NCBI RefSeq assembly: GCF_004745825.1
Contig: NZ_SRLA01000001.1
Span: 1,302,001-1,366,000 of the forward strand
DNA from: Hymenobacter fodinae
GTDB lineage: Bacteria > Bacteroidota > Bacteroidia > Cytophagales > Hymenobacteraceae
Direction of reading: 5' to 3'
DNA length: 64,000 nucleotides
Notes under the pieces: model-generated
What the model was told of the DNA's origin: nothing
Databases searched by the model: none
The model's input: only the letters and a program-made list of their open reading frames with translations
Shown here: piece by piece, positions 2,134 through 62,525 of the stretch
Layout: each line of letters begins with the position of its first letter
Numbering within the stretch: position 1 is the stretch's first letter
Translations under genes and position numbers: made by a program

Positions 2134-2274
2134 GGGAAAAGTCCGGTAGAATAGAACCGTTGCTTTATGATTCTGGAAGAAAGTCGGCTGCTACAGAACT
2201 AGTAGTAGTTAGCTCATGAAGATTTAACCTCGCTAGGCCAGTCCAGAAGTGTGATATTATGAATTGAACTAAGA

Positions 2275-2311
2275 AAGCAAAAAGGGCTGCCCCGCCAGCG
2301 GAACAGCCCTT
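2275..2311 (-). terminator. Rho-independent terminator of the desaturase gene
   Basis: An AAGGGCTG/CAGCCCTT stem (2282-2289 with 2304-2311) with an inner CCGC/GCGG pairing is followed, on the minus strand, by TTTTTGC. It lies 21 nt beyond the desaturase stop codon. Confidence 0.85.
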
Positions 2312-2331
2312 CTACAGTATGTTGGCAATGC

Positions 2332-3105
2332 TTAGGCAGCCATTTTCTTGGTTGGCTTCTTATCAGCCGGTGCCTCTACTTTGCGCTTAATTTTCACAAC
2401 GCCTACTTTATCCATACCCCAAATAAACATGTAAGTAGGGTCAAACTCCCACCACTTTACGCCGAAATTAACGCGCATGGGCAGTTTGTGGTGATTGTTC
2501 TGGAACAGCTCCCCAAAAGCGAGGAAGTCTAGGGCCAGGGTATTCTTAGAGTGGTCGTGGTTGTCGAAGTTCTGATAGCCATACTTGTGCCCACCCCAGT
2601 TCACGATAGCGCCGTGAATGGGGCCCATCAGGAAGTGGATGGGCAGCAGCAGAAACTGCCACCAGGCCGTAGCAAACTGCACGTAGAACAGCACATAGAG
2701 GGCGCCCCAACCAATGCGTGAGTACCATTTGTCGCCCAGGTTCTCAACGGCCGCCCACTCTGGGTAATCACCCTCAAAACGCTCTGCTAACTCGTAGCGC
2801 TTGTTGAGCACATCATTGTAGATGTTCTTGGTCTTCCACATCATCGAAAAAGCATTCGATGAGAAGAGGGGAGAGTGGGGGTCCAGCTCCGTGTCGGAAT
2901 AGGCGTGGTGCATGCGGTGAAGCAGCGCGTATGCCCGCGGCGACAGGAAAGAAGAGCCCTGGCAGATGTACGTGAACAGGAAGAAGAATTTCTCCCAGAA
3001 CTTGTTCATCGTGAACATCTTGTGGGCCGCATAGCGGTGCAGATAGAAAGTCTGCGTGAAGAGCGACAAATAGTAGTGCGCTACGAAGAAAACGAGTATC
3101 GCCAT
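2332..3105 (-). CDS. Membrane fatty-acid (acyl-CoA) desaturase
   Basis: A di-iron membrane desaturase of the stearoyl-CoA desaturase type, which inserts a cis double bond into acyl chains and so tunes membrane fluidity. The 257-residue protein has all three histidine boxes: HRYAAH (23-28), HRMHH (63-67) and NNHHK (203-207), plus GGHKYG near 171. Hydrophobic segments lie at 1-20, 37-55 and 132-170. The C-terminus is Lys-rich. It stands alone, with its own promoter (3197-3228) and terminator (2275-2311). The substrate (acyl-CoA, acyl-ACP or phospholipid) cannot be told from sequence. Confidence 0.9.
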   Translation of the reverse strand: MAILVFFVAHYYLSLFTQTFYLHRYAAHKMFTMNKFWEKFFFLFTYICQGSSFLSPRAYALLHRMHHAYSDTELDPHSPLFSSNAFSMMWKTKNIYNDVLNKRYELAERFEGDYPEWAAVENLGDKWYSRIGWGALYVLFYVQFATAWWQFLLLPIHFLMGPIHGAIVNWGGHKYGYQNFDNHDHSKNTLALDFLAFGELFQNNHHKLPMRVNFGVKWWEFDPTYMFIWGMDKVGVVKIKRKVEAPADKKPTKKMAA

Positions 3106-3196
3106 GGGCCAAAAAAGAGGTGAAACAGAGCTAGAAGCAGCTAGTACTCATTCCGCAAAAGCTCGAAAGCTAAGGATAAGTTCAGCAGCTAGTTTG

Positions 3197-3228
3197 CAAA
3201 ACTACTGCCAGGGTACTGCTGCCTGCAA
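3197..3228 (-). promoter_or_regulatory. Promoter of the desaturase gene
   Basis: Minus-strand TAGTTTTG (3197-3204) is a full TAnnTTTG -7 box. TTGC (3225-3228) lies 20 nt upstream as the -33 box. Both sites and the spacing fit the Bacteroidota primary sigma factor. Transcription would start near 3190, leaving a leader of about 85 nt. Confidence 0.65.
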
Positions 3229-3288
3229 TTTCCCTATATAAAAGGCCAAAATGTTGTTCAGCCTTACGAGGGTTGCTACGCGCACGAG

Positions 3289-3389
3289 CAAAAAAGCCGC
3301 CAGCAGAGGTGGCAAACTGTGTGCTGAACACTTACAGCTGCTAGGCCACTTGTGGGTCTGGACACAGTTCGCCACCTGTGCTGGCGGCT
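3289..3389 (-). terminator. Long inverted repeat acting as terminator, CTAGGCC in its loop
   Basis: Two 28-nt arms, 3295-3322 and 3362-3389, are complementary at 26 of 28 positions. Each starts or ends with an AGCCGCCAGC-type sequence. The 39-nt loop contains CTAGGCCACT (3341-3350). Read on the minus strand the structure ends in TTTTTT (3289-3294), so it can stop transcripts of the RluA-family gene, whose stop codon is 20 nt away. The stem is far longer than a standard terminator, so it may be a mobile palindrome that became a terminator. Confidence 0.75.
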
Positions 3390-3408
3390 ACTTTATGAAG
3401 TACGCGAT

Positions 3409-4140
3409 TTAATAATACGTTTTGGCAGCTTCCCAGTGGGCAATGTCAGGCACGGGAGCTTCAAAGCACATAGCCTCTTTCGTGACGGGGTGCTGCAACT
3501 CTAGCCGGCGGGCATGCAGGGCAATGCTAACGTCGGGCAAGGGAGCCAGGAAACCGTATTTTACGTCACCCACAATAGGGGTGCCTAGGCCAGTGCTAAG
3601 CTGCACCCGAATCTGGTGGGGACGACCCGTGATGGGGTTTACTTGTACCAGCCACCGGGTACCCGCCTGGCCTAGCACCTGGTAGTCCAGATCTGATTTC
3701 AGCCCTTGTCCGTGGCGCTCTGAGTACGCCTTAGTAGTGTTACGAATGGGGTCTTTTACCAGCCAGTGGGTTAGGTGGCCACTGGTAGGCTCGGGGCACT
3801 TGCCGGTCAGCGCCCAATACGTTTTATGCACCTTATTGTCGCGGAACATCTCATTGAGGCGACTTAGGGCTTTGCTGGTTTTGGCCAGCGCTACTACCCC
3901 ACTCACTGGCCGGTCGAGACGATGCGCTACGCCTACGAAGGCGGCACCAGGCTTCTTGTACTTAAAACGTAGGTATTCTTCCGCTTTGGCAGAAAGAGGC
4001 TCATCGCCAGTGGCATCACCCTGCACAAGCAGGCCGGCGGGCTTGTTAATAATGAGCAGATGGTTGTCTTCGAACAGAATTTCTTTCCGTTCCGACCACA
4101 GATTCGGACGATTCACTAGCGGGAAATGGGCAATGAACAA
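3409..4140 (-). CDS. RluA-family pseudouridine synthase
   Basis: This enzyme isomerises uridine to pseudouridine in rRNA or tRNA. The 243-residue protein has the catalytic motif HRLDRPVSG at 73-81, with Asp76 as the expected nucleophile, and the TGRPHQIRVQ block near 168-177. There is no N-terminal S4 domain, which places it with short RluA/TruC-like enzymes. The target uridine cannot be inferred. An 80-nt gap separates it from panB upstream. Confidence 0.9.
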   Translation of the reverse strand: MFIAHFPLVNRPNLWSERKEILFEDNHLLIINKPAGLLVQGDATGDEPLSAKAEEYLRFKYKKPGAAFVGVAHRLDRPVSGVVALAKTSKALSRLNEMFRDNKVHKTYWALTGKCPEPTSGHLTHWLVKDPIRNTTKAYSERHGQGLKSDLDYQVLGQAGTRWLVQVNPITGRPHQIRVQLSTGLGTPIVGDVKYGFLAPLPDVSIALHARRLELQHPVTKEAMCFEAPVPDIAHWEAAKTYY

Positions 4141-5036: not shown

Positions 5037-5249
5037 AGTAAAAGGGGATGGTAAGGCTGAAGAGGAAAGAAGGAAACAGCTCATCCGTTAGCAAACAGAT
5101 GACGGCCCAAAACTGCAGAAATTTTCCGCAACTGTTAATCAACTTAGTCTTACTCCAGTGCCCCGGTATGTGCGCTAGGCCAGTTGGGCACTATTTCAAG
5201 CACAGGAAACTATCCGGGTGGCCTATCACGCCATAGCCAGCTCCTGCCG

Positions 5250-10111: not shown

Positions 10112-10146
10112 GCCTGCTAGGCCAGTTCCACATTCTGCTTACCTTT

Positions 10147-12589: not shown

Positions 12590-13897
12590 ATGAAAAGAAT
12601 ACTATGCCTACTGCTGTTGGCGGGCAGTATAAATTCAGCTCTAGGCCAGTCTGCTAAGAAGCAGAAGGTGTTTACGGAGGACATTGACCGTTTTTGGGTG
12701 GCCTACGACAGTATCCGGACCACAGCGAACCGCACTAAGCAGCTGGCCTACATCAACAACTTGTATATCAAGCCGGGTACTGAGGGGCTGGCGGCGTTCA
12801 TGAAGGCGCGTGACTATTCGGCGGAACTGTGGGTGGACCTGATTAACAAGCTGCCAAAGTATTGGGCATCCATCCGGCCGAATACGCTGGCGGTGAAAAC
12901 GAAAACCAAGGATATTGAAAAGAGCATTCGGCGGTTTAAGCGGCTGTATCCGGAGATGCGGGAGGCCAGCATGTACTTTACCATCGGTGGGTTGCGCTCG
13001 GGCGGTACGGTAGATGGGAGTAAGGTGCTTATCGGGACAGAAATAGCTACCGGAAATGCGCAAACAGATGTTTCGGAGTTTAAGAATCCGTGGCTGCCGG
13101 GCGTATTCAAGGAGCAGTCCATGGACAACATCGTTCCGCTGAACGTGCACGAATACGTGCACACCCAACAGCACGAGGGTGGGGCCAACCTGCTAGGCCA
13201 GTCGCTGAAGGAGGGTGCCTGCGACTTTGTAACCGAGCTGATTATGGGTAAGCCGCTCCAGGGGACTTACTTTACCTATGGGGCCGCCCACGAGCAGGAG
13301 CTGCGGGAAGCGTTCAAGCAGGAAATGTTTACCACTTATTATGCCCATTGGCTGTACAACGGCTCCACCGCCAGCACCACCGCCGATTTGGGCTATTACA
13401 TGGGCTATGCCATCAACAAGGCCTACTATGCGCCGGCCAAGAGCAAGCGGCAGGCGGTGAAGGAAATAATCGAGCTGGACTATGCTAACCCGGAAGCCGT
13501 AGAGCGCTTCGTGAAGCAGTCGGGCTACTACCCCGAAGGCTGGGACAAAGCAGCACTGTTGGCCGGGTTTACGGCTCGCCAGCCGGTGGTGTTAGGCACT
13601 CTGCCCGCTACCAATGGCACCGCAGAACTCGACGCTACTGACCGGACATTAGTAATTCAGTTCGATAGAGAAATGGGGGAGGGGATGTCATTCAGCCCTG
13701 GTCCTCGCGGCAAAGAATACTTCCCGCTGAAAAAGCCCGTAGGCTTTTCTACTGACCACAAGTCTTTTACCGTGGAGATGGAGCTGCAGCCTCACCACGA
13801 ATACGAGTTTGTCGTGACCGTGATGCCGCGCGGCTTCATCTCCAAAGACGGCTACCTGCTGCGGCAGGACTATCCCATTAGGTTCAAGACAAAGTAG
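12590..13897 (+). CDS. Secreted HEXXH metalloprotease-like protein with Ig-like tail
   Basis: The chosen ATG (12590) gives 435 residues starting MKRILCLLLLAGSINSALGQ, a signal peptide; a longer frame from 12452 would run through the terminator. HEYVH at 187-191 is a zinc-binding HEXXH helix, and Glu208 in SLKEGACDF is a plausible third ligand, as in DUF2268-like gluzincins. After about residue 325 comes an Ig-like domain of the Big_5/SbsA type (TLVIQFDREMGEGM ... YEFVVTVMPRGF). It is probably periplasmic or surface-exposed. The substrate is unknown. A near-match -7 box, TACCTTTTG, lies at 12556-12564. Confidence 0.75.
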   Translation: MKRILCLLLLAGSINSALGQSAKKQKVFTEDIDRFWVAYDSIRTTANRTKQLAYINNLYIKPGTEGLAAFMKARDYSAELWVDLINKLPKYWASIRPNTLAVKTKTKDIEKSIRRFKRLYPEMREASMYFTIGGLRSGGTVDGSKVLIGTEIATGNAQTDVSEFKNPWLPGVFKEQSMDNIVPLNVHEYVHTQQHEGGANLLGQSLKEGACDFVTELIMGKPLQGTYFTYGAAHEQELREAFKQEMFTTYYAHWLYNGSTASTTADLGYYMGYAINKAYYAPAKSKRQAVKEIIELDYANPEAVERFVKQSGYYPEGWDKAALLAGFTARQPVVLGTLPATNGTAELDATDRTLVIQFDREMGEGMSFSPGPRGKEYFPLKKPVGFSTDHKSFTVEMELQPHHEYEFVVTVMPRGFISKDGYLLRQDYPIRFKTK

Positions 13898-14360: not shown

Positions 14361-14828
14361 GTGACCGACCAGAATACCGCCGCTTTTGACAAGGCCCGCA
14401 CCGGCCTCTGGACCAGCCTGCAAAAGCACCTGACGGCCGTGTATGGCGCCGAGAAAACCTTCCTGGCCGCCACTGCTTTCGTAGAGGCGTTTCCGTTTGC
14501 GCTGCACTCAGCCACCGAGGAGCAGCAGGCCGACTACGCCAGCGCCCGCCGTGGCCTCCGCGATTTGTACACCGACGAAACCAACCAGCTCGACACGCTG
14601 GTAAAAGCCATCCGCACTAAAGGGTACTCCGAGGATCAGAAGAAGCAGCTTTACCTCCTTATTCTGGGGTACATGGATATTGCCGCTTCGGTGTTTGAGC
14701 TGCTGATTACCCATGTGCCCGCCAAGCAGCCCGAGGATGAGGAGCTAGCTGCCACAGTGGCTAAGTTTGAGCGGGTGCGGAAATTTGCCCGCCTGAATGT
14801 GAAGGGAATAGCGGGGCTACTGGCCTAG
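14361..14828 (+). CDS. Conserved-looking helical protein of unknown function
   Basis: This 155-residue protein starts at GTG and is predicted all-helical and soluble, with no signal peptide. I do not recognise the family. Charged heptad-like stretches run at about 52-90 (ATEEQQADYASARRGLRDLY onward) and near the C-terminus (AATVAKFERVRKFARL). The stop codon is the TAG of a GGCCTAG copy. The frameshifted DUF1572 gene follows after 61 nt, so the two may share a transcript. Confidence 0.6.
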   Translation: MTDQNTAAFDKARTGLWTSLQKHLTAVYGAEKTFLAATAFVEAFPFALHSATEEQQADYASARRGLRDLYTDETNQLDTLVKAIRTKGYSEDQKKQLYLLILGYMDIAASVFELLITHVPAKQPEDEELAATVAKFERVRKFARLNVKGIAGLLA

Positions 14829-15558: not shown

Positions 15559-17286
15559 ATGGCGAAGAAGACTGTCTCGGAAATTATAGTAGATACCCTG
15601 ATTGCGGCGGGCGTGAAGCGTGTGTACGGCGTGGTGGGCGACTCCCTCAACGGCATCACCGACGAAATTCGGGCGCGAGAAGGTATTGAGTGGATCCACG
15701 TTCGGAATGAAGAAGCCGGGGCGTTTGCCGCCGGGGCCGAGGCCCACGTAACGGGTACCCTGGCAGTGTGCGCCGGTAGCTGCGGCCCCGGCAACACCCA
15801 CCTGCTTAATGGTCTCTATGACTGCCACCGCAGCCGCGTGCCGGTGCTGGCCATTGCCGCCCAAATCCCCAGTATCGAAATAGGAACCCAGTATTTCCAG
15901 GAAACTCACCCCGAGAACACCTTCAAGGAGTGCAGCGCCTACTGTGAGCTGATAGGCCACCCCGACCAAACCGTGCGCACCACGGAAGTAGCCATTCAAA
16001 CGGCCCTCACCCAGCGAGGCGTGGCGGTGATAGTAGTGCCCGGCGACATCAGCCACCAGAAGACGGAAGCCCCGGAGCCGCGCCTGCCCGTATTGCGCAG
16101 CCGCGCCACCCTAGTGCCCGCTATCGAAGACCTGCGCGCCGCCGCCGACCTGTTGAATACTTGTGATAAAGTGACTATTATGGCCGGAGCTGGCTGTGCA
16201 GATGCCCATGCGGATTTGCTGCAAGTAGCCGAAGCTCTGGGTGCCCCCGTAGTACACGCCCTGCGCGGCAAAGAGTACGTGGAGGCCAACAACCCCTACG
16301 ATGTAGGGCTGAGTGGCCTACTGGGCTTCACTTCGGGCTATGAGGCCCTAATGGCCGCCGACGCCATGCTGTTGCTCGGCACCGACTTCCCCTATACTCA
16401 GTTCCTGAATCAGGAAGCGCGCAACGTGCAGGTTGACGTACGAGGCGAGCACATTGGTCGTCGCGCTCGGGTAGAGGTAGGCCTAGTGGGTGATGTGGCT
16501 GCTACTCTGCAAGCCCTGCTGCCGTTGCTCAACCATAAATCGGACCGCCGCCACCTGGAAAAGGCCTTGGATAACTACCGTGAGGCCCGCCAAGACCTAG
16601 ACGAACTGGCTACCGGGGAGCCCGGCGACACCAGCATGCACCCGCAGTACGTGGCGCGCCTGCTGAATGAGCAAGCCGCCGAAGACGCCATTTTCACCTG
16701 CGACGTAGGTACTCCCACCATCTGGGCAGCACGCTACCTCCGCTTCAACGGACAGCGCCGCCTCATTGGCTCCTTCAACCACGGCAGTATGGCCAACGCT
16801 ATGCCCCAGGCCCTGGGCGCACAACTGGCCTACCCCAACCGGCAGGTAATTGCGCTGGCCGGCGACGGTGGTTTTGCCATGCTCATGGGCGAGTTGCTGA
16901 CGCTCAAGCAGCTGAAGACACCCGTGAAAGTGGTCATCTTCAACAATAACAGCTTGGGCTTTGTGGAGCTGGAAATGAAGGCGGCCGGTATTCTGGAATA
17001 TGGCACCGAGCTAGAAAACCCCAACTTCGCGGCCCTAGCCGAAGCCGCTGGGGTGCGCGGCATCCGCGTCACTGACCCTGCCGATCTGCCCACGGCCATT
17101 ACTGAAATGCTGGCCCACCCCGGCCCCGTTATTCTCGATGCCGTTGTGAAACGCACAGAGCTCTCCATGCCGCCCACCATCGACGCCAGCCAGGTGAAGG
17201 GCTTCAGTCTCTACACGCTCAAGGCTATTATGAATGGCCGAGGAGATGAGGTGCTGGAAATGGCCAAAACCAATCTGTTGCGGTAG
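15559..17286 (+). CDS. poxB: Pyruvate dehydrogenase (quinone) / pyruvate oxidase
   Basis: A TPP- and FAD-dependent enzyme that decarboxylates pyruvate to acetate and CO2 and passes electrons to the quinone pool at the membrane. The 575-residue length fits PoxB. The catalytic Glu lies in RNEEAGAFAAGAEA (about 49-62), the FAD domain is central, and the TPP motif begins GDGGFAMLMGEL at about 435 and continues to FNNNSLGFVELE. The C-terminus (ending MAKTNLLR) is where PoxB enzymes bind lipid. Related TPP enzymes such as acetolactate synthase are less likely given the YFQETHPENTF segment typical of PoxB. It is single-gene, followed by a large repeat region. Confidence 0.92.
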   Translation: MAKKTVSEIIVDTLIAAGVKRVYGVVGDSLNGITDEIRAREGIEWIHVRNEEAGAFAAGAEAHVTGTLAVCAGSCGPGNTHLLNGLYDCHRSRVPVLAIAAQIPSIEIGTQYFQETHPENTFKECSAYCELIGHPDQTVRTTEVAIQTALTQRGVAVIVVPGDISHQKTEAPEPRLPVLRSRATLVPAIEDLRAAADLLNTCDKVTIMAGAGCADAHADLLQVAEALGAPVVHALRGKEYVEANNPYDVGLSGLLGFTSGYEALMAADAMLLLGTDFPYTQFLNQEARNVQVDVRGEHIGRRARVEVGLVGDVAATLQALLPLLNHKSDRRHLEKALDNYREARQDLDELATGEPGDTSMHPQYVARLLNEQAAEDAIFTCDVGTPTIWAARYLRFNGQRRLIGSFNHGSMANAMPQALGAQLAYPNRQVIALAGDGGFAMLMGELLTLKQLKTPVKVVIFNNNSLGFVELEMKAAGILEYGTELENPNFAALAEAAGVRGIRVTDPADLPTAITEMLAHPGPVILDAVVKRTELSMPPTIDASQVKGFSLYTLKAIMNGRGDEVLEMAKTNLLR

Positions 17287-17290: not shown

Positions 17291-17538
17291 ACCCGTCATG
17301 TCGAGCTTGTCGAGGCCTCTCGCGTGCTGACGTTGCCCGCTAGCTCGCCCTAAAAGCACGTCATCCTGAGCTTGCGAAGGATCTTATCACGTTAGTACGC
17401 AGCGCTAGGCCAGTCGTTCATACGGGGTAAGATCCTTCCTGCGTCAGGATGACGTGCTAATTGGGCTGTTCTAGACTAGTTTGATTACTACCATAACCTC
17501 AGCACGCGAGATGTCTCGACAAGCTCGACATGATGGGT
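17291..17538. repeat. Nested composite palindrome, two repeat families
   Basis: Outer arms 17291-17334 and 17496-17538 are about 93% complementary; each contains GTCATGTCGAGCTTG and the GCGTGCTGA end. Inside lies a second palindrome of a different family: 17355-17390 against 17427-17458, with arms AGCACGTCATCC...GAAGGATCTTA. The innermost loop contains AGCGCTAGGCCAGTCGTTCA (17401-17420). The inner family recurs at 29,046 and 38,247; the outer recurs at 39,630 and, as half a copy, at 61,949. This accounts for most of the 473-nt gap between poxB and the next gene. Confidence 0.9.
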
Positions 17539-17573: not shown

Positions 17574-17606
17574 CGCCTAGGCCAGTATGTATAGTTGGCC
17601 TAGGCG
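17574..17606. repeat. Perfect hairpin made of two GGCCTAGGCC copies
   Basis: CGCCTAGGCCA (17574-17584) and TGGCCTAGGCG (17596-17606) are perfect 11-nt arms around an 11-nt loop. Each arm contains the complete decamer-type palindrome. CTTTGGG follows, so weak termination is possible. Confidence 0.8.
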
Positions 17607-18708: not shown

Positions 18709-18718
18709 TAGGACTGGC

Positions 18719-19330: not shown

Positions 19331-19436
19331 GCAGGTTGGAAAAATGGTGATTAAGTGATTGAGTGACTTAGTGAGCATGCTGTTCGACTGGCCTAGGGCG
19401 CGCCACTGGCGCAGAAAGGAGGTCAAACTCACCACT

Positions 19437-21164: not shown

Positions 21165-21265
21165 TGAGAAAAAGGAGGCAGCAGTGGCCTAGGCCACTAC
21201 CCGTAGCCATCTTATTTCCCGTACCCGGTTCCTGGCTACTCAATACCTAATCCGCAGTACCACCC

Positions 21266-22384: not shown

Positions 22385-22428
22385 TAGCTGGGAAGAACAA
22401 CCGGCTAGGCCACTAGCGCGCTTCTCAA

Positions 22429-45820: not shown

Positions 45821-45838
45821 TCGTGAGCAACAAGTGGC

Positions 45839-46630
45839 CTAGCCGATGCTCCGGATAACGCCGCCATCAACGCGCACAGAAGCGCCATTAGTAGCCGAGG
45901 CCAACGGGCTGGACAAGTACACTACCATGTTGGCTACTTCGTCGGTGGTGGCGAAGCGCTGCAGGAGAGAAGAGGGGCGGGCGTCGCGGAAGAACTCATG
46001 CTCAGCTTCTTCGGGCGTTTTGCCTTCGGCAGACAGCTTGCCAATAAACTCCTGCACTCCCTCCGAAGCCGTAGGGCCCGGCAGCACTGAGTTTACCGTC
46101 ACGTTAGTGCCTTTTGTCAGCTCCGCTAGGCCACGTGCTACGGCCAGCTGCGCCGTTTTGGTGGTGCCGTAATGAATCATTTCCTCCGGAATCTGCAGGC
46201 CCGATTCGCTGGAAATGAAAATGATGCGGCCCCAGTTTTTAGCCAGCATCTGTGGGAAATAGTGGCGCGAAAGGCGTACCCCGCTCATTACATTTACCTC
46301 AAAAAAGCGCAGCCAGTCCTCATCCGGAATTTCCGTGAAAGGCTTGGGGTCGAAGATGCCCACGTTGTTGACCAGAATATCCACGCTGGCTACTTCGCGC
46401 AGCAGGGCGGCTACCTCTTCGGGCTTGCCAAAGTCAACGGCCACGCCGCGCACGTTAGCCTGCGGCACGGCCTCTTGAATAGTAGCCCGAGCCTCTTGGA
46501 TGCGCGCTTCCGTGCGGCCCGTGATGATGATATGTGCGCCCTCGGCGGCCAGGCCGCGGGCAATTGCCAAGCCAATGCCGCCCGTAGAGCCCGTTACGAG
46601 GGCCACTTTGCCGGTCAGTTGTAAGTCCAT
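45839..46630 (-). CDS. SDR-family oxidoreductase
   Basis: A 263-residue classical short-chain dehydrogenase/reductase. The NAD(P) site is TGSTGGIGLAIA (14-25), then NNVGIF (about 88-93), catalytic Ser in FISSESGLQ, and a Y-X3-K variant in IHYGTTKTAQLAVARG. The C-terminus has RVDGGVIRSIG. The closest general type is 3-oxoacyl-ACP-reductase-like SDRs. The stop codon abuts CTAGCC of a GTGGCCTAG copy. Confidence 0.88.
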   Translation of the reverse strand: MDLQLTGKVALVTGSTGGIGLAIARGLAAEGAHIIITGRTEARIQEARATIQEAVPQANVRGVAVDFGKPEEVAALLREVASVDILVNNVGIFDPKPFTEIPDEDWLRFFEVNVMSGVRLSRHYFPQMLAKNWGRIIFISSESGLQIPEEMIHYGTTKTAQLAVARGLAELTKGTNVTVNSVLPGPTASEGVQEFIGKLSAEGKTPEEAEHEFFRDARPSSLLQRFATTDEVANMVVYLSSPLASATNGASVRVDGGVIRSIG

Positions 46631-46758
46631 AGTTGAATGGTCAGATTAAAATCGATTCTCTGTGTAACCCACAAAGCCGAATTTTGTCTTAGGTGGACTT
46701 TAGTGAACTAGGCAGAGTACAGCCGATGGCCAGAACTGCCCTAGGCCACTGCAGCAAG

Positions 46759-47520: not shown

Positions 47521-47749
47521 GCATTGGCTAACGAAAAGTTGAACCGAACGGATGTGCCACACTCAAAACAACCCATTCGCTAGTGGCCTAGCAGTAGCAC
47601 GGTGTCGTTTCCGCCAGTACGTTCAGGGCATGGGCCGGCAGCTTGCGTGACAACCTAAGACAGACGCTTTAATGGGATTATAATACTGTTTTAATCCCAT
47701 TGTAATCCGCATTTAATGTGCTTATAAGGTCCTTTTAACTAGTGCTTAA

Positions 47750-48004: not shown

Positions 48005-50383
48005 ATGAGTAAACAACCTGGTGCTTCTCGTTTTGTGGACTTCTCGTACTTCAAAAACGACTTGCAGGGTGGCTTTGTCTCGTTCTTGGTAGCGGTGCCC
48101 CTGTGTTTGGGCATTGCGCTAGCCTCGGGGGCACCCCTGTTTGCGGGCATCATTGCGGGCATAGTGGGCGGGCTGGTAATAGGGGCGCTGAGCAAGTCGG
48201 CGCTAAGCATTTCGGGGCCCGAGGCCGGCCTGATTCTGGTGGTAGTGAGTGCACTAGAGTCGTTAGGTTCGTTTGGGGCACTACAGGTGGCGCTGTGCGT
48301 GGCCGGATTAATGCAGATTGTGCTGGGCATTGCAAGGGCCGGCATCATCAGCAATTTCATTCCTTCGGCCGTGATTAAGGGCATGCTGGCTGCAATCGGC
48401 ATCATCCTGATCATGAAACAGCTTCCCCACTTGCTAGGCTACGATGCTGATGCGGCCGAGACCCTGGCCCTGTTCCCCAAAACCGGCTCGACCATTATGG
48501 CCCTGCTTGAAGCGGCCGTTCATCACATTCAGCCTACTGGCCTAGGCATTGCGGTGCTGGCCCTGGCGGTGCTGGTGCTCTGGGAACAGTCTTTCATCAA
48601 ACAGCACCCAGTGTTTTCCAAGGTGCCCGGGGCCCTGATTGTGGTGGTGCTGGGCGTGCTGGTAAACCAGCTGGTGCTGGCCCTGAACCCTGCGTTGGCC
48701 CTCAGGGGTACCCACCTGGTGCAACTGCCGGTGGTATCGAGCGCCGCCGACTTCCAGAACCTGTTTACTCTACCCGATTTCAGCCAGCTGACCAATGCTA
48801 AGGTGTATCTGGCTGCTGTGTCTATTGCCCTTGTGGCTAGTCTGGAGGCGCTACTCTCCATTGAAGCTACCGATGCGCTGGACCCGCTCAAGCGCAAAAC
48901 CCCTACCAACTGGGAGCTGAAAGCCCAGGGCGTGGGCAACCTGGTGAGTGGCCTGCTGGGTGGCCTACCCGTTACCTCCGTTATTGTGCGCAGCTCCGTG
49001 AGCCTGAATGCCGGCGCCCGCACCAAGCTGGCCGCTCTGCTGCACGGTACCTTCCTGCTGATCAGTGTGCTGCTCTTCCCAAAGCTGCTAAACATGGTGC
49101 CCTGGGCCGCCCTGGCTGCTATCCTGCTCGTGACGGGCTATAAGCTGGCGCGCGTGAGTGTGTTTAAGGAGCAGTTCAAGGGTGGTATTACGGAGTATGT
49201 GCCCTTTCTGGCGACGATTGTGGCCATTTTGGTCACCGACCTGCTAATCGGTATTGGGATTGGGGCGGCTGTGGGTATGTTCTTTATCTTGCGGGAGAGT
49301 TACCGCAACGCCCACTTTTTCGAGCATAAGAAGGTAGATGGGCGCGACAAAATCCGGATCAGCCTCGGCGAGCATGTGTCGTTTCTGAACAAGGCCAGTA
49401 TCCTGACCGTGCTCAAGGACATTCCCGAAAATGCCACCCTGGAAATCGACGGCACCAACTCCGCCTTCATTGACCGCGACATTCTCAGTGCCATCGAGCA
49501 CTTCCGCGACACGGCCCGGCAGCGCAACATTCAGGTGGTGTTTCTGCGCAAAGGCGACGACTACACCCAGGCCCTGGCTGAACAACGCCGCGTGAGTGAG
49601 CCCGAAGCCGAGTTTGAGGCTTACTACAAGCTGTTTAACAATGACCGGAACTGGGTAAGTCAGAAGCTGATGAATACCCGCCACCCCGGCGCCGAGCCAA
49701 CAACCGAAGACGCTCCTAAATTTCTGTTCATTGGGTGCTGCGACAGCCGCGTGCCCGCCAGCGAAATAATCGGGACGGCCCCGGGCGAGGTATTTGTGCA
49801 CCGCAACGTGGCCAACCTGGTGGTCAGCACCGATCTGAACCTGATGTCGGTGCTGGAGTACGCCGTAGACGTGCTGGGCGTAGAGCACATTGTGGTGTGC
49901 GGGCACTATGGCTGCGGCGGCGTGCAAGTAGCCATGGAAAGCCCCGAAAATAGCCTGCTCACCAGCTGGCTCGGCAATGTGCGCGAAGTAATGCAGCGCT
50001 ACCGCACCGAGCTGGAGGCCCTAGAAACCGACGAGGAACGCTACCGTCGCCTCGTGGAGCTGAACGTGATTGAGCAGGTGTATAACCTCTACCAGACCAA
50101 CGCTGTGCTGCAGGCGCGGCAGCAGCGCCGCCCGCTGCACATCCACGGCTGGGTATACGACTCGCACGCCGGCCGCATCCAGGACTTGCAGGTAGATACC
50201 AGCCGCGACTTTGCCGAGTACGAAACCACGCTGCGCTACCACCTGCGCCCCGATGGCTTAACCCGCCTCAATGGCACGCTGCACCAGCCCCCGGCCATTT
50301 ACTCCATCTTGGCTCACAATACCGGCGGCCCCATCATTGCCATTCCGCCCCTGCGCGGCGACGCGCCGCTGGGCACTCCGTAA
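48005..50383 (+). CDS. SulP anion transporter fused to beta-carbonic anhydrase
   Basis: The ATG at 48005 (MSKQPGASRFVDFSYFKNDL) gives 792 residues. The first 430 are SulP with about 12 transmembrane helices (GGFVSFLVAVPLCLGIALAS onward). A STAS domain follows at about 455-530 (TLEIDGTNSAFIDRDILSAI), then a beta-class carbonic anhydrase at about 560-770. The latter has CCDSRVPAS (about 577-585, Cys and Asp ligands), HRNVANLV and CGHYGCGG (zinc His and Cys). The fusion suggests bicarbonate uptake coupled to CO2/HCO3- exchange. The direction and ion are inferred from fold. Confidence 0.92.
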   Translation: MSKQPGASRFVDFSYFKNDLQGGFVSFLVAVPLCLGIALASGAPLFAGIIAGIVGGLVIGALSKSALSISGPEAGLILVVVSALESLGSFGALQVALCVAGLMQIVLGIARAGIISNFIPSAVIKGMLAAIGIILIMKQLPHLLGYDADAAETLALFPKTGSTIMALLEAAVHHIQPTGLGIAVLALAVLVLWEQSFIKQHPVFSKVPGALIVVVLGVLVNQLVLALNPALALRGTHLVQLPVVSSAADFQNLFTLPDFSQLTNAKVYLAAVSIALVASLEALLSIEATDALDPLKRKTPTNWELKAQGVGNLVSGLLGGLPVTSVIVRSSVSLNAGARTKLAALLHGTFLLISVLLFPKLLNMVPWAALAAILLVTGYKLARVSVFKEQFKGGITEYVPFLATIVAILVTDLLIGIGIGAAVGMFFILRESYRNAHFFEHKKVDGRDKIRISLGEHVSFLNKASILTVLKDIPENATLEIDGTNSAFIDRDILSAIEHFRDTARQRNIQVVFLRKGDDYTQALAEQRRVSEPEAEFEAYYKLFNNDRNWVSQKLMNTRHPGAEPTTEDAPKFLFIGCCDSRVPASEIIGTAPGEVFVHRNVANLVVSTDLNLMSVLEYAVDVLGVEHIVVCGHYGCGGVQVAMESPENSLLTSWLGNVREVMQRYRTELEALETDEERYRRLVELNVIEQVYNLYQTNAVLQARQQRRPLHIHGWVYDSHAGRIQDLQVDTSRDFAEYETTLRYHLRPDGLTRLNGTLHQPPAIYSILAHNTGGPIIAIPPLRGDAPLGTP

Positions 50384-50438: not shown

Positions 50439-50660
50439 GCGTTAGTGGCCTAGGCTATGTAGAATAAGGTTAAGGAGAATCCTGTTGACCCTAGGATAAA
50501 GCAGAAGCTCTTGTGTAGCTGCCTGCACAGACAGCCTAGGCCAGGTGGCAACGGGTACTCCCGAGTGCTCCGTGTAAGACGAGCTGTTCAGGCGGGCTAA
50601 TCCATTTTTCGGCATCGTCGTAGTATGTACGAACTTGTTTTACCCCGTACTGCTGCTCCT

Positions 50661-51164
50661 ATGGACTTTACCTCTGCCCGGCCCGAAGACTTACTGATTG
50701 ATGCTGCCCGCAATGGCGACGTGGCCCACCTCCGGGAACTCCTGGCCAGCGGCCTCGACGTGAACCTGCAAAACGGCAAAGGCTTTACGCCCCTGATTGT
50801 GGCTGCCTATGATGATCAGGTAGAAGCCACGCGCCTCTTACTGGAGGCCGGCGCCGACCCCAACGTGCAGGATGCTTCCGGCAACACCGCCCTGATGGGC
50901 GTCAGCTTCAAGGGTTACCCCGAGGTGGCACGTCTGCTCATTGAGCACGGCGCCCAGCTGGATGTGCAAAACGGCAACGGCGGCACGGCCCTCATGTTTG
51001 CCACCCTCTTTGGCCGCAACAACATTTTGCCGGTGCTGCTGCAAGCTGGTGCCGACATCAACGTGAAAGACGTGCGCGGCCTGACGGCCCCCGACCTGGC
51101 CGTGCAACAGGGCAACACGGAGGCCCTCCGAATTTTTGATGAGCACTTCGGCCGCAAGGCCTAG
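50661..51164 (+). CDS. Ankyrin-repeat protein
   Basis: A 167-residue cytoplasmic protein (179 if started at 50625). Four ankyrin repeats are readable: DLLIDAARNGDVAHLRELLA, GFTPLIVAAYDDQVEATRLL, GNTALMGVSFKGYPEVARLL and GGTALMFATLFGRNNILPVL, then a C-terminal cap. It is a protein-interaction module of unknown partner. The stop codon lies in AAGGCCTAGGCCACT. Confidence 0.88.
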   Translation: MDFTSARPEDLLIDAARNGDVAHLRELLASGLDVNLQNGKGFTPLIVAAYDDQVEATRLLLEAGADPNVQDASGNTALMGVSFKGYPEVARLLIEHGAQLDVQNGNGGTALMFATLFGRNNILPVLLQAGADINVKDVRGLTAPDLAVQQGNTEALRIFDEHFGRKA

Positions 51165-51250
51165 GCCACTTTGGTCACCCTACTAGGCCTTTGGTCGGGG
51201 TGGCGTCGTCAAGTTCTTTTTATTGTATCAACCCTTAACGCCTAACGCTT

Positions 51251-52430: not shown

Positions 52431-52654
52431 GTAAGAAGAATATAAAGAGGAAGGAGAATAGATACGCGCGTTGCCGATAGCCCTGCCTAGGCCACTACGG
52501 CAACTATAGTTTACCTCAACAAGAAGTAAAAAATATAGCACCTATCTAATGCAGCCCCTCCAGAAAGGTAGCCTTATGCCCTGATTTTGCATAGCCGGGC
52601 GGTTCAGCCTGACGTATTGAGAGATACGACCACCATTCTGAACTTACCGACCCT

Positions 52655-53695: not shown

Positions 53696-53718
53696 CAGCC
53701 CGCTAGGCCACTAAAACA

Positions 53719-54150: not shown

Positions 54151-54293
54151 TTACCGTAGGCCAGTCAGCTCCAACGTTTCTCCGGCTTTAAAGTGTGCAC
54201 TACTACGCCCGTGGCAGGAGGGAGGTGAATGCGCAGCTGCTCCGGCGTGCCCACGAAGGAGCCCAGAAGCTGAAGTTGAGTTGGGCTGGGCAT
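54151..54293 (-). pseudogene. Second frameshifted small gene, unknown protein
   Basis: ATG at 54293 opens MPSPTQLQLLGSFVGTPEQL then RIHLPPATGVVVHT, and the frame stops early. Reading -1 from about 54,190 gives FKAGETLELTGLR and TAA at 54151-54153. The span is 143 nt, one short of 48 codons, so one missing base restores a 47-residue protein. It lies 58 nt upstream of the previous gene and probably formed an operon with it. Confidence 0.5.
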
Positions 54294-54475: not shown

Positions 54476-54825
54476 AAGACCGCGGGCTTGAAATGTCCAG
54501 TTATCCGTCAGGCTGCTTGTTCCTGGCCAAACTCAGTTTGCATGTAATCCATTTAGTGGCCTAGGCCTGTTTCGCGTCCTCTTTTTCCAGACAACTTAAC
54601 GGCTGACCTGCGCAGTTGTGGCGTTGCGCGTAGCCGGCTACGTCAACTTCCTGCTGCTCTGATGCTGTTTGGGCGTACGTGTCTGCTGCTGGTAGGGGCT
54701 TTGCCATGAAGAGCTATAGCCTAGGTCTGTTTCTTCAGTCCCATTTCAGGGCGGTGGCTTCGTGTCATTTTTCAAGACAAGCTCCTGCTGTCTGGTATCT
54801 CCCCATCATCTTATTGTTTTTCTAT

Positions 54826-56418
54826 ATGAGTATCATAGCTACAGGGCTTACCTATGCCCATCCCGATAAAGAAATCCTGTTCCAGCACCTGCAGCTATCC
54901 ATCCCGAAAGGAGGCAAGGCCTCTATCGTCGGGAATAATGGCGTCGGAAAATCCACTTTATTACAACTTCTGGCTGGCCGGCTGCCGCCTACCGCCGGCG
55001 AAGTCACGTTGCCGGAAAGGCCCTACTACGTGCCTCAGCACCTAGGCCAGTACGATGACCATACCGTGGCGCAGGCGTTGGGCGTAGCGGAAAAGCTGCA
55101 GGCCCTGCAAGACATTCTCGCCGGGGAGGCCAGCCCGGAAAACTTCACCGTGCTCAACGACGACTGGGACCTGGAGGAGCGCGTGCAAGCAGCTCTGGCG
55201 TTCTGGCACCTGCCGCACCTGCACCTCGCGCAGCCCTTGCGGGAGCTAAGCGGCGGAGAGAAAACCAAGGTATTTCTGGCCGGCGCCCTGATTCACGCCC
55301 CGGAAATCATTCTGCTTGATGAGCCTTCCAACCACCTCGACGCCGAAAGCCTCCAGCTGCTGTACACCTTCATCCGGCGTAGTAAGGCCACCGTTCTGGT
55401 CGTCAGCCACGACCGAACCCTGCTGAACCTACTGGATCTTACGCTCGAGCTAACGCCAACTGCCCTTGAGGCCTACGGGGGTAACTACACGTTCTACCGC
55501 GAGCAAAAAGACGCCAAGCTAGCGGCCCTGCACGCCCAGCTAGAGGACCGGGAAAAGACCCTGCGCCAGGCCCAACAAACGGCCCGCGACGTAGCCGAGC
55601 AGCGCCACAAGCAGGAGGCACGTGGCAAGGCACAGGGCCAGAAGAAAGCCCTGCCCCGCATTGTGGCCGGAAGCCTGAAGAGCAAAGCCCAGCAAAGCTC
55701 CGCCCAGCTCAAAGAAGCCCACACCGATAAAATCAACGGCATTGCCCAAGACGTGAAGCACCTCCGGACCCAACTGCAGGAGCAGCAACTCCTGAAGATC
55801 GACCTGGCCAAATCAGACCTGCACCGGGGCAAAACGCTGGTAGAGGCCCGGGCCATCAACTTCAGCTACGGGGAGCAGCCGCTGTGGCCCGCGCCGCTGA
55901 CGTTTCAGGTGCGCTCCGGCGAGCGGGTGCGCCTGGCCGGCCGCAACGGCGCGGGCAAATCAACGCTGCTGCACCTTATGACCGGGGCTCTGAAGCCTAC
56001 CTCGGGAGAGATATTCGTGGCCGATTTCGACTACTTCTACATCGATCAGGACTACTCCCTGCTGGATAATGACCTGACGGTGTTTGAGCAAGTGCAGCGC
56101 TTCAATTCCCGCGGCCTGTTAGAGCACGAGCTGAAAACGGTGCTCCACTACCAACAATTTCCCCGCGAAGCCTGGGACCGGAGCTGCGCCGACCTCAGCG
56201 GTGGCGAGAAACTGAAGCTACTGCTCTGCTGCCTCATCGTGCGCAATAACGCCCCCGATGTGCTCATCCTCGACGAGCCGACTAACAACCTCGATGTGCA
56301 CAGCCAAGAAGTGCTTACTGCCACGGTAAAGGACTTCGGCGGTTCCATCTTGTTAATTTCTCACGATCAGTATTTCGTAGATGCTATTGGGGTAGACGTC
56401 ACGATAGAACTGGCCTAG
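54826..56418 (+). CDS. ABC-F family ATPase
   Basis: The ATG at 54826 (MSIIATGLTYAHPDKEILFQ) gives 530 residues; an in-frame extension to 54679 looks non-coding. Two ABC domains are complete: Walker A GNNGVGKST, signature LSGGEKTK, Walker B LLDEPSNHLD; then GRNGAGKST, LSGGEKLK and LILDEPTNNLD. A charged linker with two helices (about 240-320) corresponds to the ribosome-probing interdomain linker, and there are no membrane helices. ABC-F proteins act on stalled or drug-bound ribosomes. Whether this is a housekeeping or a resistance type cannot be decided. The stop codon is the TAG of CTGGCCTAG. Confidence 0.9.
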   Translation: MSIIATGLTYAHPDKEILFQHLQLSIPKGGKASIVGNNGVGKSTLLQLLAGRLPPTAGEVTLPERPYYVPQHLGQYDDHTVAQALGVAEKLQALQDILAGEASPENFTVLNDDWDLEERVQAALAFWHLPHLHLAQPLRELSGGEKTKVFLAGALIHAPEIILLDEPSNHLDAESLQLLYTFIRRSKATVLVVSHDRTLLNLLDLTLELTPTALEAYGGNYTFYREQKDAKLAALHAQLEDREKTLRQAQQTARDVAEQRHKQEARGKAQGQKKALPRIVAGSLKSKAQQSSAQLKEAHTDKINGIAQDVKHLRTQLQEQQLLKIDLAKSDLHRGKTLVEARAINFSYGEQPLWPAPLTFQVRSGERVRLAGRNGAGKSTLLHLMTGALKPTSGEIFVADFDYFYIDQDYSLLDNDLTVFEQVQRFNSRGLLEHELKTVLHYQQFPREAWDRSCADLSGGEKLKLLLCCLIVRNNAPDVLILDEPTNNLDVHSQEVLTATVKDFGGSILLISHDQYFVDAIGVDVTIELA

Positions 56419-56448: not shown

Positions 56449-56590
56449 CTAGTTCCCCTCCTCAGATGAGGAGGGGGTAGGGGTGGTTGACCGCCCATTG
56501 AACATCTTCTAACATTAGATTTTAGTTTTAGTATCGTTCTAGGCCACTTCAACCACCCCTAGCCCCTCCTTATCTGAGGAGGGGAACTAG
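56449..56590. repeat. Dispersed palindrome, GTTCCCCTCCTCAGATGAGG family
   Basis: Arms 56449-56490 and 56549-56590 are 42 nt and nearly perfect complements. Each contains a smaller palindrome (CCCCTCCTCAGATGAGGAGG). The right half, read in reverse complement, ends GTGGCCTAGAACGAT. The half-copy at 61,885-61,938 has the same hairpin and the same GGCCTAGAACGAT word, so the 7-mer is part of the unit. It sits between convergent genes. Confidence 0.92.
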
Positions 56591-59614: not shown

Positions 59615-60002
59615 AGAGAAATGGGAATAGTATCGAAACACGCGCCAGCTGGCGGGCGGCGGGGCAGGCGGGCCCGCGTGTCTCTTGGGCCCGTATAGAA
59701 TAAGGAGCCTTAAGGTAGACAAATCAGGCAGATAGCCTACTGCTGCGCACATAATTTGCCTCTAGATGCCGAGTGCAGTTGGTCTAGGCCTCTCGCAGTT
59801 TCCAGCCGTAGTGGCCTAGGCCAGGTGGGTATGACTAAACAGACTACCCGGCTGAACGGAGCTAAGGCATTTCTACCTCTAATCAACATCAATTGTACGC
59901 GGAAAGCGGTTTGGTGCTAAGTCGAGGCCTGTGGTTGGCTCTTGCCAGTACTGCTGTCGTTTGCTGCGCCGTGAGGCTCCGTGCTAGGCCACCTGCTCCG
60001 CG

Positions 60003-60965: not shown

Positions 60966-61064
60966 CCAACCGGATTGAATGGAGCAACAACCGGATTGTT
61001 GCGCCCAACTGCTTGCCCGGTCATGGAGCGGACCTTTGCCAGTAGGTAAACCACTTCATTCCAC

Positions 61065-61826
61065 ATGACCACTTCCACCATTGCCCTCATTACGGGCGGC
61101 AGCCGCGGCATCGGCAAAGACACGGCCCTGAGCCTGGCCAAGCAAGGCACCAACGTGCTGCTCACGTACCAAAGCAAAGAAGCCGAGGCGCTGGCCACCG
61201 TGGCCGAAATTCAGGCTCTAGGCCAGCAGGCCGCCGCGCTCCAGCTCGATACCGCCGACGTATCCAGCTTCGAGGCCTTCTACGCCCAGGTAACCGCCAC
61301 CTTATCCACCACGTTTGGCGCCGAGCGGTTTGACTTCCTGATCAATAACGCCGGCTCTGGCCTAGGGGCCTCCTTCGCCGAAACCACAGAAGCGCAGTTC
61401 GACCACATGCTGCACGTGCACTTCAAAGGCGTGTTTTTCCTGACCCAGAAAGCCCTACCCCTCCTCCAGGATGGCGGCCGAATCATCAATATTTCCACCG
61501 GCCTCACCCGCAGTGTATTCCCCAATCGGGCGGCCTACGCCAGCATGAAAGGCGCCATCGAGGTCCTGACCAAGCACCAGGCCCAGGAATTGGGCCCCCG
61601 CCGCATTACCGTAAACGTGGTAGCGCCCGGCGCCATCGCCACCGACTTCAGCGGCGGCATCGTGCGCGACAACCCCCAGGTAAATGCCCACATTGCCGAG
61701 CAAACCGCCCTCGGCCGCGCCGGCCTGGCCAGCGACGTAGGAGGCGTAATTGCCTTCCTCTGCTCCGATGCCGCCGGCTGGATAACCGGCCAGCGTCTGG
61801 AAGTATCCGGCGGCATGCACCTCTAG
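61065..61826 (+). CDS. SDR-family oxidoreductase, AraC-linked
   Basis: A 253-residue SDR: TGGSRGIGKDTA (about 9-20), NNAGSG (about 92-97), Ser of INISTGLTRS, and YASMKGAIEVL. The C-terminus GQRLEVSGGMHL is standard. A one-mismatch -7 box (GACCTTTG, 61030-61037) precedes it. The substrate is unknown; AraC plus SDR pairs in Bacteroidota often respond to small aldehydes or ketones, which is a guess here. Confidence 0.9.
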   Translation: MTTSTIALITGGSRGIGKDTALSLAKQGTNVLLTYQSKEAEALATVAEIQALGQQAAALQLDTADVSSFEAFYAQVTATLSTTFGAERFDFLINNAGSGLGASFAETTEAQFDHMLHVHFKGVFFLTQKALPLLQDGGRIINISTGLTRSVFPNRAAYASMKGAIEVLTKHQAQELGPRRITVNVVAPGAIATDFSGGIVRDNPQVNAHIAEQTALGRAGLASDVGGVIAFLCSDAAGWITGQRLEVSGGMHL

Positions 61827-61865
61827 GCCAGTAGGCAGAGCAATTAGCCAACGGCAGAAGGGCAA

Positions 61866-61988
61866 ACTAAAGCTAGAAAGCAAGTTCCCCTCCTCAGATG
61901 AGGAGGGGTTAGGGGTGGTAGACTGGCCTAGAACGATCTACCTATAACCGTCATTCTGAGCGCAGCCGAGACATTTCGCGTGCTGGCG
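61866..61988. repeat. Two adjacent half-copies of dispersed palindromes
   Basis: 61866-61938 is a half-copy of the family at 56,449: ACTAAAGCTA, then GTTCCCCTCCTCAGATGAGG and ACTGGCCTAGAACGATCT. 61949-61988 is a half-copy of the GTCATTCTGAGCGCAGCCGAG family, ending GCGTGCTGGCG, as in the outer arms at 17,291. Neither has its partner arm, so single arms appear to be units of movement or decay. Confidence 0.8.
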
Positions 61989-62050
61989 TTCTGGAGTGTT
62001 CAGGGTACTGTGGCCCACTCAGCCAACCTAATAAAGCACCAGGGGAGAAA

Positions 62051-62083
62051 CAGAACCGGCCCGCTACTAGCGGGCCGGTTCTG
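62051..62083 (-). terminator. Hairpin at the end of the 62,085 gene
   Basis: CAGAACCGGCCCGCTA (62051-62066) and its perfect complement (62068-62083) form a 16-bp near-continuous palindrome. On the minus strand TTTCTCCCC follows. It is 2 nt from the stop codon. Confidence 0.75.
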
Positions 62084-62084
62084 C

Positions 62085-62525
62085 TTAGGGTATGATGGAA
62101 ACGTTCAGAGTAGTCAGGTCGGCTACTGAGCCGGGCAGCCAGGTTTTCTGGAGCAGCGCGGCAATGTGCTCCGGCAGGTCTGCCACTGTCAGCGGCCGGG
62201 CTGGCCTAGCCACCACGTAATACCGCGAATCGGCCCGCTCGTGGAGGCGCGCTTTGGCGAAGGAAAACAGGCCGCGCTGGGCATAGCGTGCCGCGCCGGG
62301 GTAACTGCTCTCATCGGCTCCCACTTCCAGCTGCACCGCCTCCGCCGAACCGCCAGCCGGCCGCGTCAGGAAATACTGATGTAGCTCTAGCAGCGCCTCC
62401 TGAGACGCCGCCACCGATTCGGGCAGTATCCCGCCGCCGGAAGCCACATGCAAGATATAGCCGTTGCTATCCGTAGCAAACCAATCAATATCCGCGTCTT
62501 CCTGGTCTATCTCGTCAATGCGCAT
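62085..62525 (-). CDS. Hypothetical protein, unknown
   Basis: A 146-residue soluble protein with GC-rich, host-like codon use. It starts MRIDEIDQEDADIDWFATDS and has YYVVARPARPLTVADLPEHI near 100. I do not recognise the family; the acidic start and a small alpha/beta pattern resemble immunity or SMI1-like proteins, but that is weak. It begins 9 nt after the stop of the AT-rich PIN gene, which is therefore directly upstream on the same strand. Confidence 0.6.
   Translation of the reverse strand: MRIDEIDQEDADIDWFATDSNGYILHVASGGGILPESVAASQEALLELHQYFLTRPAGGSAEAVQLEVGADESSYPGAARYAQRGLFSFAKARLHERADSRYYVVARPARPLTVADLPEHIAALLQKTWLPGSVADLTTLNVSIIP

Follow-up and report, generated by a model that had tools for sequence, protein, structure and literature searches.

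How does one short DNA word come to stand hundreds of times per megabase in a bacterial chromosome, and what reads it there? The question is raised by a stretch of 64,000 nucleotides from Hymenobacter fodinae (the window, meaning this whole stretch), which is part of contig C7 of a genome of 6.08 Mb in 15 contigs (G000; other G numbers denote compared genomes and L numbers sampled loci). The panB gene of the window has its nearest matches in Hymenobacter, which accounts for the best 11 of 80 listed matches with identities up to 96%. The window is crowded with the word ASTGGCCTAS (S being C or G), which is, in our analysis and at not quite even chances, a species-specific chromosomal watermark, likely to function as a DNA uptake (self-recognition) sequence in a pilus-independent and ComEC-dependent manner. 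The initial annotation had drawn attention to the heptamer GGCCTAG/CTAGGCC with about 95 copies. We count 52 copies of the first form and 60 of the second, i.e., 112 heptamers between positions 2233 (the first) and 62203 (the last), where Markov models of order 1 to order 3 expect 14.7–17.8; the massive over-representation is therefore borne out and survives this correction (an order-4 model expects 44, but the motif itself is already inside that model). The flank profile and a synonymous-codon test define the full word, and this unit is asymmetric, being neither the palindrome GGCCTAGGCC nor CTAG as such. The window holds 57 copies of ASTGGCCTAS including 48 of ASTGGCCTAG. Over the whole genome the latter has 2,561 copies, about 420 per Mb, its reversed control having 4; for TGGCCTAG and its reversed control the counts are 4,554 and 72. 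The relatives differ sharply from this, as ASTGGCCTAG has 3–48 copies in each of 32 congeners and at most 51 in every other genome among 291 searched in the order. In G043 and G150, which belong to another family of the order, it occurs 51 and 33 times (control 9 and 6), possibly reflecting a related word outside the Hymenobacteraceae. Directly after the word the information collapses to at most 0.2 bit, and farther out it does not exceed about 0.1 bit; 138 of 145 aligned sites in eight genome pairs carry no indel in the word. The copies are thus not confined to repeat elements, and conservation beyond the word of the type found in repetitive extragenic palindromes or bacterial interspersed mosaic elements was not observed. 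The over-representation of ASTGGCCTAS is real, lies far above chance and is not due to a repeat family.

Within genes the word is driven by synonymous choice. Places at which the peptide is compatible with all ten letters are filled in 204 of 370 cases on the chromosome, in 4 of 215 in word-free relatives and in 1 of 62 on the likely plasmids C14 and C15 (the chromosomal count covers 30 of 42 20-kb stretches, omitting L210, L213, L214, L218, L227–L230, L232, L233, L235, L238 and also the window). In AST-GGC-Leu-G contexts leucine is encoded by CTA in 32/32 cases, CTA accounting for 12% of leucine codons overall. If the first base is left free and S is C or G, CTA is used in 68/72; if the S position is A or T, in 9/19; and if A follows the leucine, in 0/7. 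Looser synonymous counts of CTA over the 42 stretches and the window give 199/230 and 142/169. Other species fill the possible places with words of their own in the same manner, namely 95/215 in G255, 47/140 in G214 and 85/180 in G191, compared with 1/689, 0/308 and 13/357 for these words in the word-free set.

The distribution over replicons is uneven. TGGCCTAG occurs 626 times in 840 kb of chromosome (all 42 20-kb stretches; contigs C2, C4, C5 and C6, reading N, are not included). The 138-kb contig C14, which matches the Rep3 initiator in Pfam and carries metal-efflux genes as judged by eye, has none, and the 50-kb contig C15 with Pfam matches to Rep3 and Mob_Pre has three; judged from their sequences, both are likely plasmids. 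A 20-kb prophage stretch with portal and maturation-protease families holds no TGGCCTAG, and the chromosomal stretches L218, L227 and L235 contain none or one. Since the word is abundant on the chromosome and nearly absent from the likely plasmids, a process acting on all DNA of the cell is unlikely, unless the plasmids are recent. The initial annotation had also described the heptamer as missing from two AT-rich segments. This is correct for the block at 62.25–63.75 kb, while the block at about 11.5–13.0 kb is sparse in the word but has a single site at 12641.

The orientation of the word is balanced, as had been noted at first sight, with 2,232 and 2,322 copies of TGGCCTAG on the two strands genome-wide. 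A strand test over stretches with at least five sites gives a chi2 of 32.0 with 28 degrees of freedom, and relative to GC skew the sites divide 228 versus 216 (25 stretches). Chi words and FtsK-orienting polar sequences (KOPS) are likewise short over-represented chromosomal words. Known Chi words follow the direction of replication and are common inside genes, and the KOPS pattern GGGNAGGG is oriented with replication as well; ASTGGCCTAS is unoriented by these same measures and is a different word from GGGNAGGG. The individual sites are as follows, the first and last lines giving the word-bearing and word-free parts of the window:

1–62211, no strand: chromosome stretch bearing the word, 57 sites, about 0.9 ASTGGCCTAS per kb
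1246–1255, minus: AGTGGCCTAC in gene
2233–2242, minus: ACTGGCCTAG intergenic
3341–3350, minus: AGTGGCCTAG intergenic
3585–3594, minus: ACTGGCCTAG in gene
5175–5184, minus: ACTGGCCTAG intergenic
10117–10126, minus: ACTGGCCTAG intergenic
12641–12650, minus: ACTGGCCTAG intergenic
13193–13202, minus: ACTGGCCTAG in gene
14819–14828, plus: ACTGGCCTAG, gives the TAG stop of the open reading frame (ORF) 14361–14828
16312–16321, plus: AGTGGCCTAC in gene
16824–16833, plus: ACTGGCCTAC in gene
17405–17414, minus: ACTGGCCTAG intergenic
17577–17586, minus: ACTGGCCTAG intergenic
18713–18722, plus: ACTGGCCTAG overlapping gene end
19387–19396, plus: ACTGGCCTAG in gene
20516–20525, plus: ACTGGCCTAC in gene
21183–21192, plus: AGTGGCCTAG intergenic, one half of an overlapping inverted pair with 21189–21198
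21189–21198, minus: AGTGGCCTAG intergenic, second half of the pair with 21183–21192
21665–21674, plus: ACTGGCCTAG in gene
22405–22414, minus: AGTGGCCTAG intergenic
26098–26107, plus: AGTGGCCTAG intergenic
26397–26406, minus: AGTGGCCTAG intergenic
26848–26857, minus: ACTGGCCTAG in gene
27772–27781, plus: ACTGGCCTAG in gene
29008–29017, plus: AGTGGCCTAG intergenic
29091–29100, plus: ACTGGCCTAG intergenic
30234–30243, plus: ACTGGCCTAC in gene
32823–32832, minus: ACTGGCCTAG intergenic
32941–32950, plus: ACTGGCCTAG in gene
35514–35523, minus: ACTGGCCTAG, holds the TAG stop of the ORF ending at 35517
35686–35695, plus: AGTGGCCTAC overlapping gene end
35694–35703, plus: ACTGGCCTAG in gene
36743–36752, plus: AGTGGCCTAG intergenic
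38295–38304, minus: ACTGGCCTAG intergenic
40404–40413, minus: AGTGGCCTAG intergenic
40797–40806, minus: AGTGGCCTAG in gene
41249–41258, plus: AGTGGCCTAG intergenic
42488–42497, plus: AGTGGCCTAG, gives the TAG stop of the ORF ending at 42497
43111–43120, plus: AGTGGCCTAC intergenic
43868–43877, minus: AGTGGCCTAG in gene
44503–44512, plus: AGTGGCCTAC in gene
45833–45842, plus: AGTGGCCTAG overlapping gene end
46741–46750, minus: AGTGGCCTAG intergenic
47582–47591, plus: AGTGGCCTAG intergenic
48536–48545, plus: ACTGGCCTAG in gene
50444–50453, plus: AGTGGCCTAG intergenic
51161–51170, minus: AGTGGCCTAG, holds the TAG stop of the ORF ending at 51164
52487–52496, minus: AGTGGCCTAG intergenic
53703–53712, minus: AGTGGCCTAG intergenic
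54156–54165, minus: ACTGGCCTAC intergenic
54555–54564, plus: AGTGGCCTAG intergenic
55042–55051, minus: ACTGGCCTAG in gene
56409–56418, plus: ACTGGCCTAG, gives the TAG stop of the ORF ending at 56418
56539–56548, minus: AGTGGCCTAG intergenic
59810–59819, plus: AGTGGCCTAG intergenic
61823–61832, minus: ACTGGCCTAG, holds the TAG stop of the ORF ending at 61826
61922–61931, plus: ACTGGCCTAG intergenic
62212–64000, no strand: word-free AT-rich end block, likely foreign; 39% GC at 62–64 kb, 32% GC at 62.75–63.75 kb, no heptamer past 62203

Within the end block, a gene likely of the AAA-ATPase type and its small partner gene are seen by eye at positions 62535–63761; the two may form a foreign module.

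The word is present in coding and in non-coding DNA, as had been described, and it favors the latter. Among 357 copies of TGGCCTAG in 384 kb of DNA that is 83% coding (genes being called by our own codon-score script and not taken from an annotation), 201 are genic, 132 are intergenic and 24 straddle a gene edge, so that 156/357 are outside genes or across edges; for permuted 8-mers this is 98/890 (792 in genes, 90 between, 8 across edges), and six further word-bearing genomes likewise show enrichment outside genes. Gaps between convergent genes hold 3.85 sites per kb, those between tandem genes 2.6–3.0 and those between divergent genes 1.4. TAG stops overlap the word in 41 of 150 cases, and the share of TAG among stops, 48%, is slightly above that of word-free sets (40–44%), other word-bearing genomes ranging from 33% to 54%. 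Sites are depleted 20–60 nt past stops and recover at 60–120 nt. We read this placement as avoidance of functional DNA. Possible places at most 200 bp from another site are filled in 64/138 cases versus 145/242 farther away (Fisher p 0.014, a weak and uncorrected result from one of several tests), and inverted pairs mostly represent the overlapping palindrome (18), other close pairs occurring once each.

The word is one of several in its family. Other abundant words were found in 13 further genomes of Hymenobacteraceae, and TA is contained in all 14 robust cases including ASTGGCCTAS. Sampled dialect words are CCCTAGGG in G214, ACCTAGGT in G255, ACCTAGGG in G307, G315 and G246, CCCTACCC or CCTACCCC in G191 and G310, and AACTATAG, AGGTATAG and AAGTATAA in Pontibacter and G160 (three Pontibacter words, from 20-kb samples); several dialects are palindromes. 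In whole genomes, RCCTAGGK, with each palindromic copy counted twice, reaches 8,506 in G255, 6,512 in G307, 6,630 in G315, 4,910 in G246, 5,157 in G288 and 3,236 in G214, compared with 64–416 in 21 genomes and 1,024 in G000; CCCTACCC reaches 3,414 in G191, 2,893 in G310 and 2,751 in G276, compared with 91–482 in the other 25 genomes. Weaker and uncertain words of other congeners are GGGGCCCC and GCCCCCCA, both lacking TA, and GGCTAGCC, and many congeners have no abundant word, including G128 and G221 with 120 kb each (word-free status refers to samples of 20–120 kb per genome). Word-bearing and word-free species are scattered over a six-protein tree of 20 genomes. The neighborhoods of panB (up to 20 kb) in other Bacteroidota among L030–L096, loci below 6 kb being skipped, contain nothing comparable, although a 20-kb sample can miss weak words; L078 is a possible exception (ACTTTAGG 8 versus 0.3), the value of L093 stems from five copies, and all others have z below 12. 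ASTGGCCTAS belongs to a pattern extending over the Hymenobacteraceae, for which no description was found in the literature searched.

At orthologous positions, sites of different dialects coincide at about the chance level, in 1 of 62 aligned sites over seven genome pairs. Between G307 and the word-free G306, 28 aligned sites show no indel and 1–4 substitutions each, with an identity of 0.67 inside the word versus 0.76 in the flanks, and of 40 sites compared between G307 and G315, two genomes with a common word, 30 are unchanged versus 15.8 expected (0.876^7; binomial p 6e-6). One of 11 aligned sites is intact between G000 and G296. From the near-absence of indels and the conservation between G307 and G315, it seems that sites originate as substitutions in sequence already present and are retained thereafter.

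Because the word is dense on the chromosome and scarce on the likely plasmids, and because relatives have other words or none, it likely marks DNA as the species' own. Marks of this kind are known in two families. The DNA uptake sequence (DUS) of Neisseriaceae, which is bound by the minor pilin ComP, is also a word of about 10 bp with hundreds of copies per Mb, has dialects with a short common core, is conserved in permissive sites and is missing from recently acquired genes (PMC3630211, PMC2397512). The uptake signal sequence (USS) of Pasteurellaceae resembles ASTGGCCTAS in density, 31–913 per Mb being reported in a paper that treats two dialects (PMC12616744), and in its reported bias to gene ends (PMC2346458). 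ASTGGCCTAS shares with these words a copy number of hundreds per Mb, well in excess of expectation, strand balance, a permissive and largely intergenic placement with absence from acquired DNA, dialects with a common core (TA in the robust cases), and a comEC gene in the same genome. It differs from DUS in phylum and word family, with TA here and CTG in all Neisseriaceae dialects (PMC3630211). No match to the platform family PF00482 (type IV pilus, type II secretion and Tad systems) was obtained in 39/41 genomes of the genus including G000, G191, G307, G315 and G310, nor in any of 10 genomes in a second search including G214, G255, G276, G246, G288 and G160 (G000 was repeated); it is present in G128, word-free at 120 kb, and in G300. 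The uptake machine would therefore differ from that of Neisseriaceae and Pasteurellaceae, which in the latter includes pilus machinery. A precedent within the Bacteroidota is Riemerella, whose transformation requires ComEC and a protein with three helix-hairpin-helix (HhH) domains without pilus homologues (PMC8459023), R. columbina preferring its own DNA; for the latter, A/T-rich runs are reported as top k-mers and no comparable word is described (PMC7965970). G000 encodes comEC with Competence and DUF4131 domains (G000:C8:825715) as well as an open frame of 360 aa in which HHH_3 matches three times (C7:1172863–1173519), and across the genus PF03772 is found in 40/41 and HHH_3 in 41/41 genomes. 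In the word-free congener G296 (G296:C3:3832603–3833258) the three-HhH gene is split over two frames (225 and 220 aa), the others listed having about 337–423 aa.

From the DUS-like set of features, the absence of PF00482, the Riemerella precedent and the presence of comEC and the three-HhH frame, we infer a pilus-independent uptake or self-recognition word. A predicted surface or periplasmic receptor would bind ASTGGCCTAS and let word-bearing DNA enter natural transformation by way of ComEC, with no type IV pilus involved. Such DNA would be preferentially taken up or recombined, a near-match that mutates into the word would be copied between cells more often, and through this preferential copying the word would build up at all places that the encoded protein leaves free. 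The word would stay missing from plasmids and prophages not recombining in this way, and a change in receptor specificity would let a new dialect overwrite the old one. In its wider form, which we hold with somewhat greater reserve, the Hymenobacteraceae would possess a third, independently evolved system of sequence-specific DNA uptake. It would be the first such system in Bacteroidota, and also the first to work without a type IV pilus; in it, a fast-evolving putative receptor would read TA-centered words, and thousands of chromosomal sites would be rewritten in each species to fit the dialect of that species. Literature searches, which lay mostly outside subscription journals and took the top-ranked matches of the longest lists, returned no paper on competence in Hymenobacter or on uptake words in this genus.

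Several observations weigh against an uptake word. The absence of PF00482 from all 11 word-bearing genomes tested rejects the type IV pilus as their uptake machine, and with it the sole known receptor class is missing. No candidate for a receptor covarying with the words was found. DUF5689 (PF18942), considered because a Riemerella transformation protein carries this domain, was rejected as it does not covary: the class of about 430–480 aa is shared by word-bearing G000, G307, G315, G310, G255 and G276 with word-free G128 and G221 and with G258 (for which three words were counted), and no match was obtained in word-bearing G191, G214, G246 and G160. The gene comEC is equally frequent in word-free relatives, and in word-rich G191 an element carrying phage-type integrases breaks it up, possibly a loss of recent date. 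The likely plasmids may be recent arrivals. An even spacing of sites was sought and not found, the spacing being random with a coefficient of variation of 1.0. Similar words occur in distant lineages, and the dialects are incongruent with the tree, whereas those of Neisseriaceae are congruent with theirs. In G000 the signature of substitution is weak, with an identity inside the word of 0.72 (G292) and 0.73 (G296) versus 0.75 and 0.73 in the flanks at 11 sites each. Finally, an uptake function does not predict strand bias of a word, but per 20 kb CCCTACCC is biased in G310 (1:28, 4:21; but 6:5; L163, L174, L189) and in G191 (3:17, 4:13, 3:12; but 8:2; L117–L121), and AAGCTAGG splits 14:36 in G255. 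These oriented words are thus possibly KOPS-like or Chi-like signals or overlap with such signals.

A few further loci are noted here. At L153 (G191:C32:278501–298500) comEC lacks its N-terminal part (no DUF4131 match), and the adjoining element comprises two phage-type integrases and a primase-like gene. By eye, no common extra gene was seen next to comEC in G000, G191 and G306. At L148 (G000:C11:386976–390608) a SusD-like protein, a DUF5689 protein and a phosphoesterase stand in a row, by eye possibly a locus for scavenging phosphate or nucleic acid. In G030, a genome without the abundant dialect, the 50 places of CCCTACCC listed on contig C1 split by position: as far as 0.84 Mb 29/36 are on the minus strand, and at 1.09–1.49 Mb 14/14 are on the plus strand. 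In this genome CCCTACCC is likely a replication-oriented, KOPS-like word.

HIP1-like and Chi-like roles are the main rivals. The first, unlikely in our judgment, takes ASTGGCCTAS as the site of an intracellular enzyme that modifies or repairs DNA, the word being created and kept by modification-linked repair or selection. The comparison with HIP1 (highly iterated palindrome) of cyanobacteria, already drawn in the initial annotation, holds for a short abundant word with high copy number, presence in coding DNA and saturation (PMC4390886), and fits less well with the intergenic enrichment, the species-specific dialects and the near-absence from likely plasmids; in addition, HIP1 is the palindrome GCGATCGC, and ASTGGCCTAS is asymmetric. 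G000 does encode one C5 methyltransferase. This enzyme lies near a phage terminase gene (L238, G000:C8:900001–920000) and is so probably prophage-borne, and the C5 family occurs in 3/11 word-bearing versus 1/7 word-free genomes, the N6_N4 family in 6/11 versus 5/7. Of the methyltransferase families, PF00145 and PF01555 were searched for a partner, and neither of these two covaries with the words. An enzyme acting on all DNA should, moreover, mark resident plasmids, yet their places are almost empty compared with the chromosome, unless, again, these plasmids came recently.

A shade less probable is a Chi-like recombination signal, i.e., a word that stops or redirects a nuclease of the RecBCD/AddAB type and is hence favored on the chromosome. 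Such a signal would be chromosome-specific and could change between species together with the enzyme, and the conservation of words between G307 and G315 and the strand bias of some related words would agree with it; however, ASTGGCCTAS is strand-balanced and enriched between genes, contrary to known Chi words, and several dialects are palindromic. Slightly more doubtful again are binding sites of a chromosome-organizing protein, nucleoid-associated or acting in segregation, whose specificity changes fast. The word is bound to the chromosome, strand-balanced and placed where genes are left undisturbed, and since the CCCTACCC dialect is oriented in many stretches and fits the KOPS pattern GGGNAGGG, an FtsK-like use of that dialect is possible. 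Known chromosome-organizing systems, on the other hand, have fewer sites and slowly changing words, and neither the near-complete synonymous saturation nor the absence in close relatives would be expected. A role at gene ends, as transcription terminator or mRNA-level element, to which the overlapping TAG stops and the dense convergent gaps might point, is very improbable, because most sites lie inside genes, the 20–60 nt past stops are depleted, and the inverted pairs, chiefly the overlapping palindrome, leave no loop.

If ASTGGCCTAS is indeed an uptake word, a third family in another phylum, and one without a pilus, would show that such watermarks evolve repeatedly, and each species would carry a genome-wide barrier and identity tag. 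The receptor question would then be open to genetics, as relatives with different words and with none exist. The finding could also explain the self-preference of R. columbina and could help the genetics of environmental Bacteroidota.

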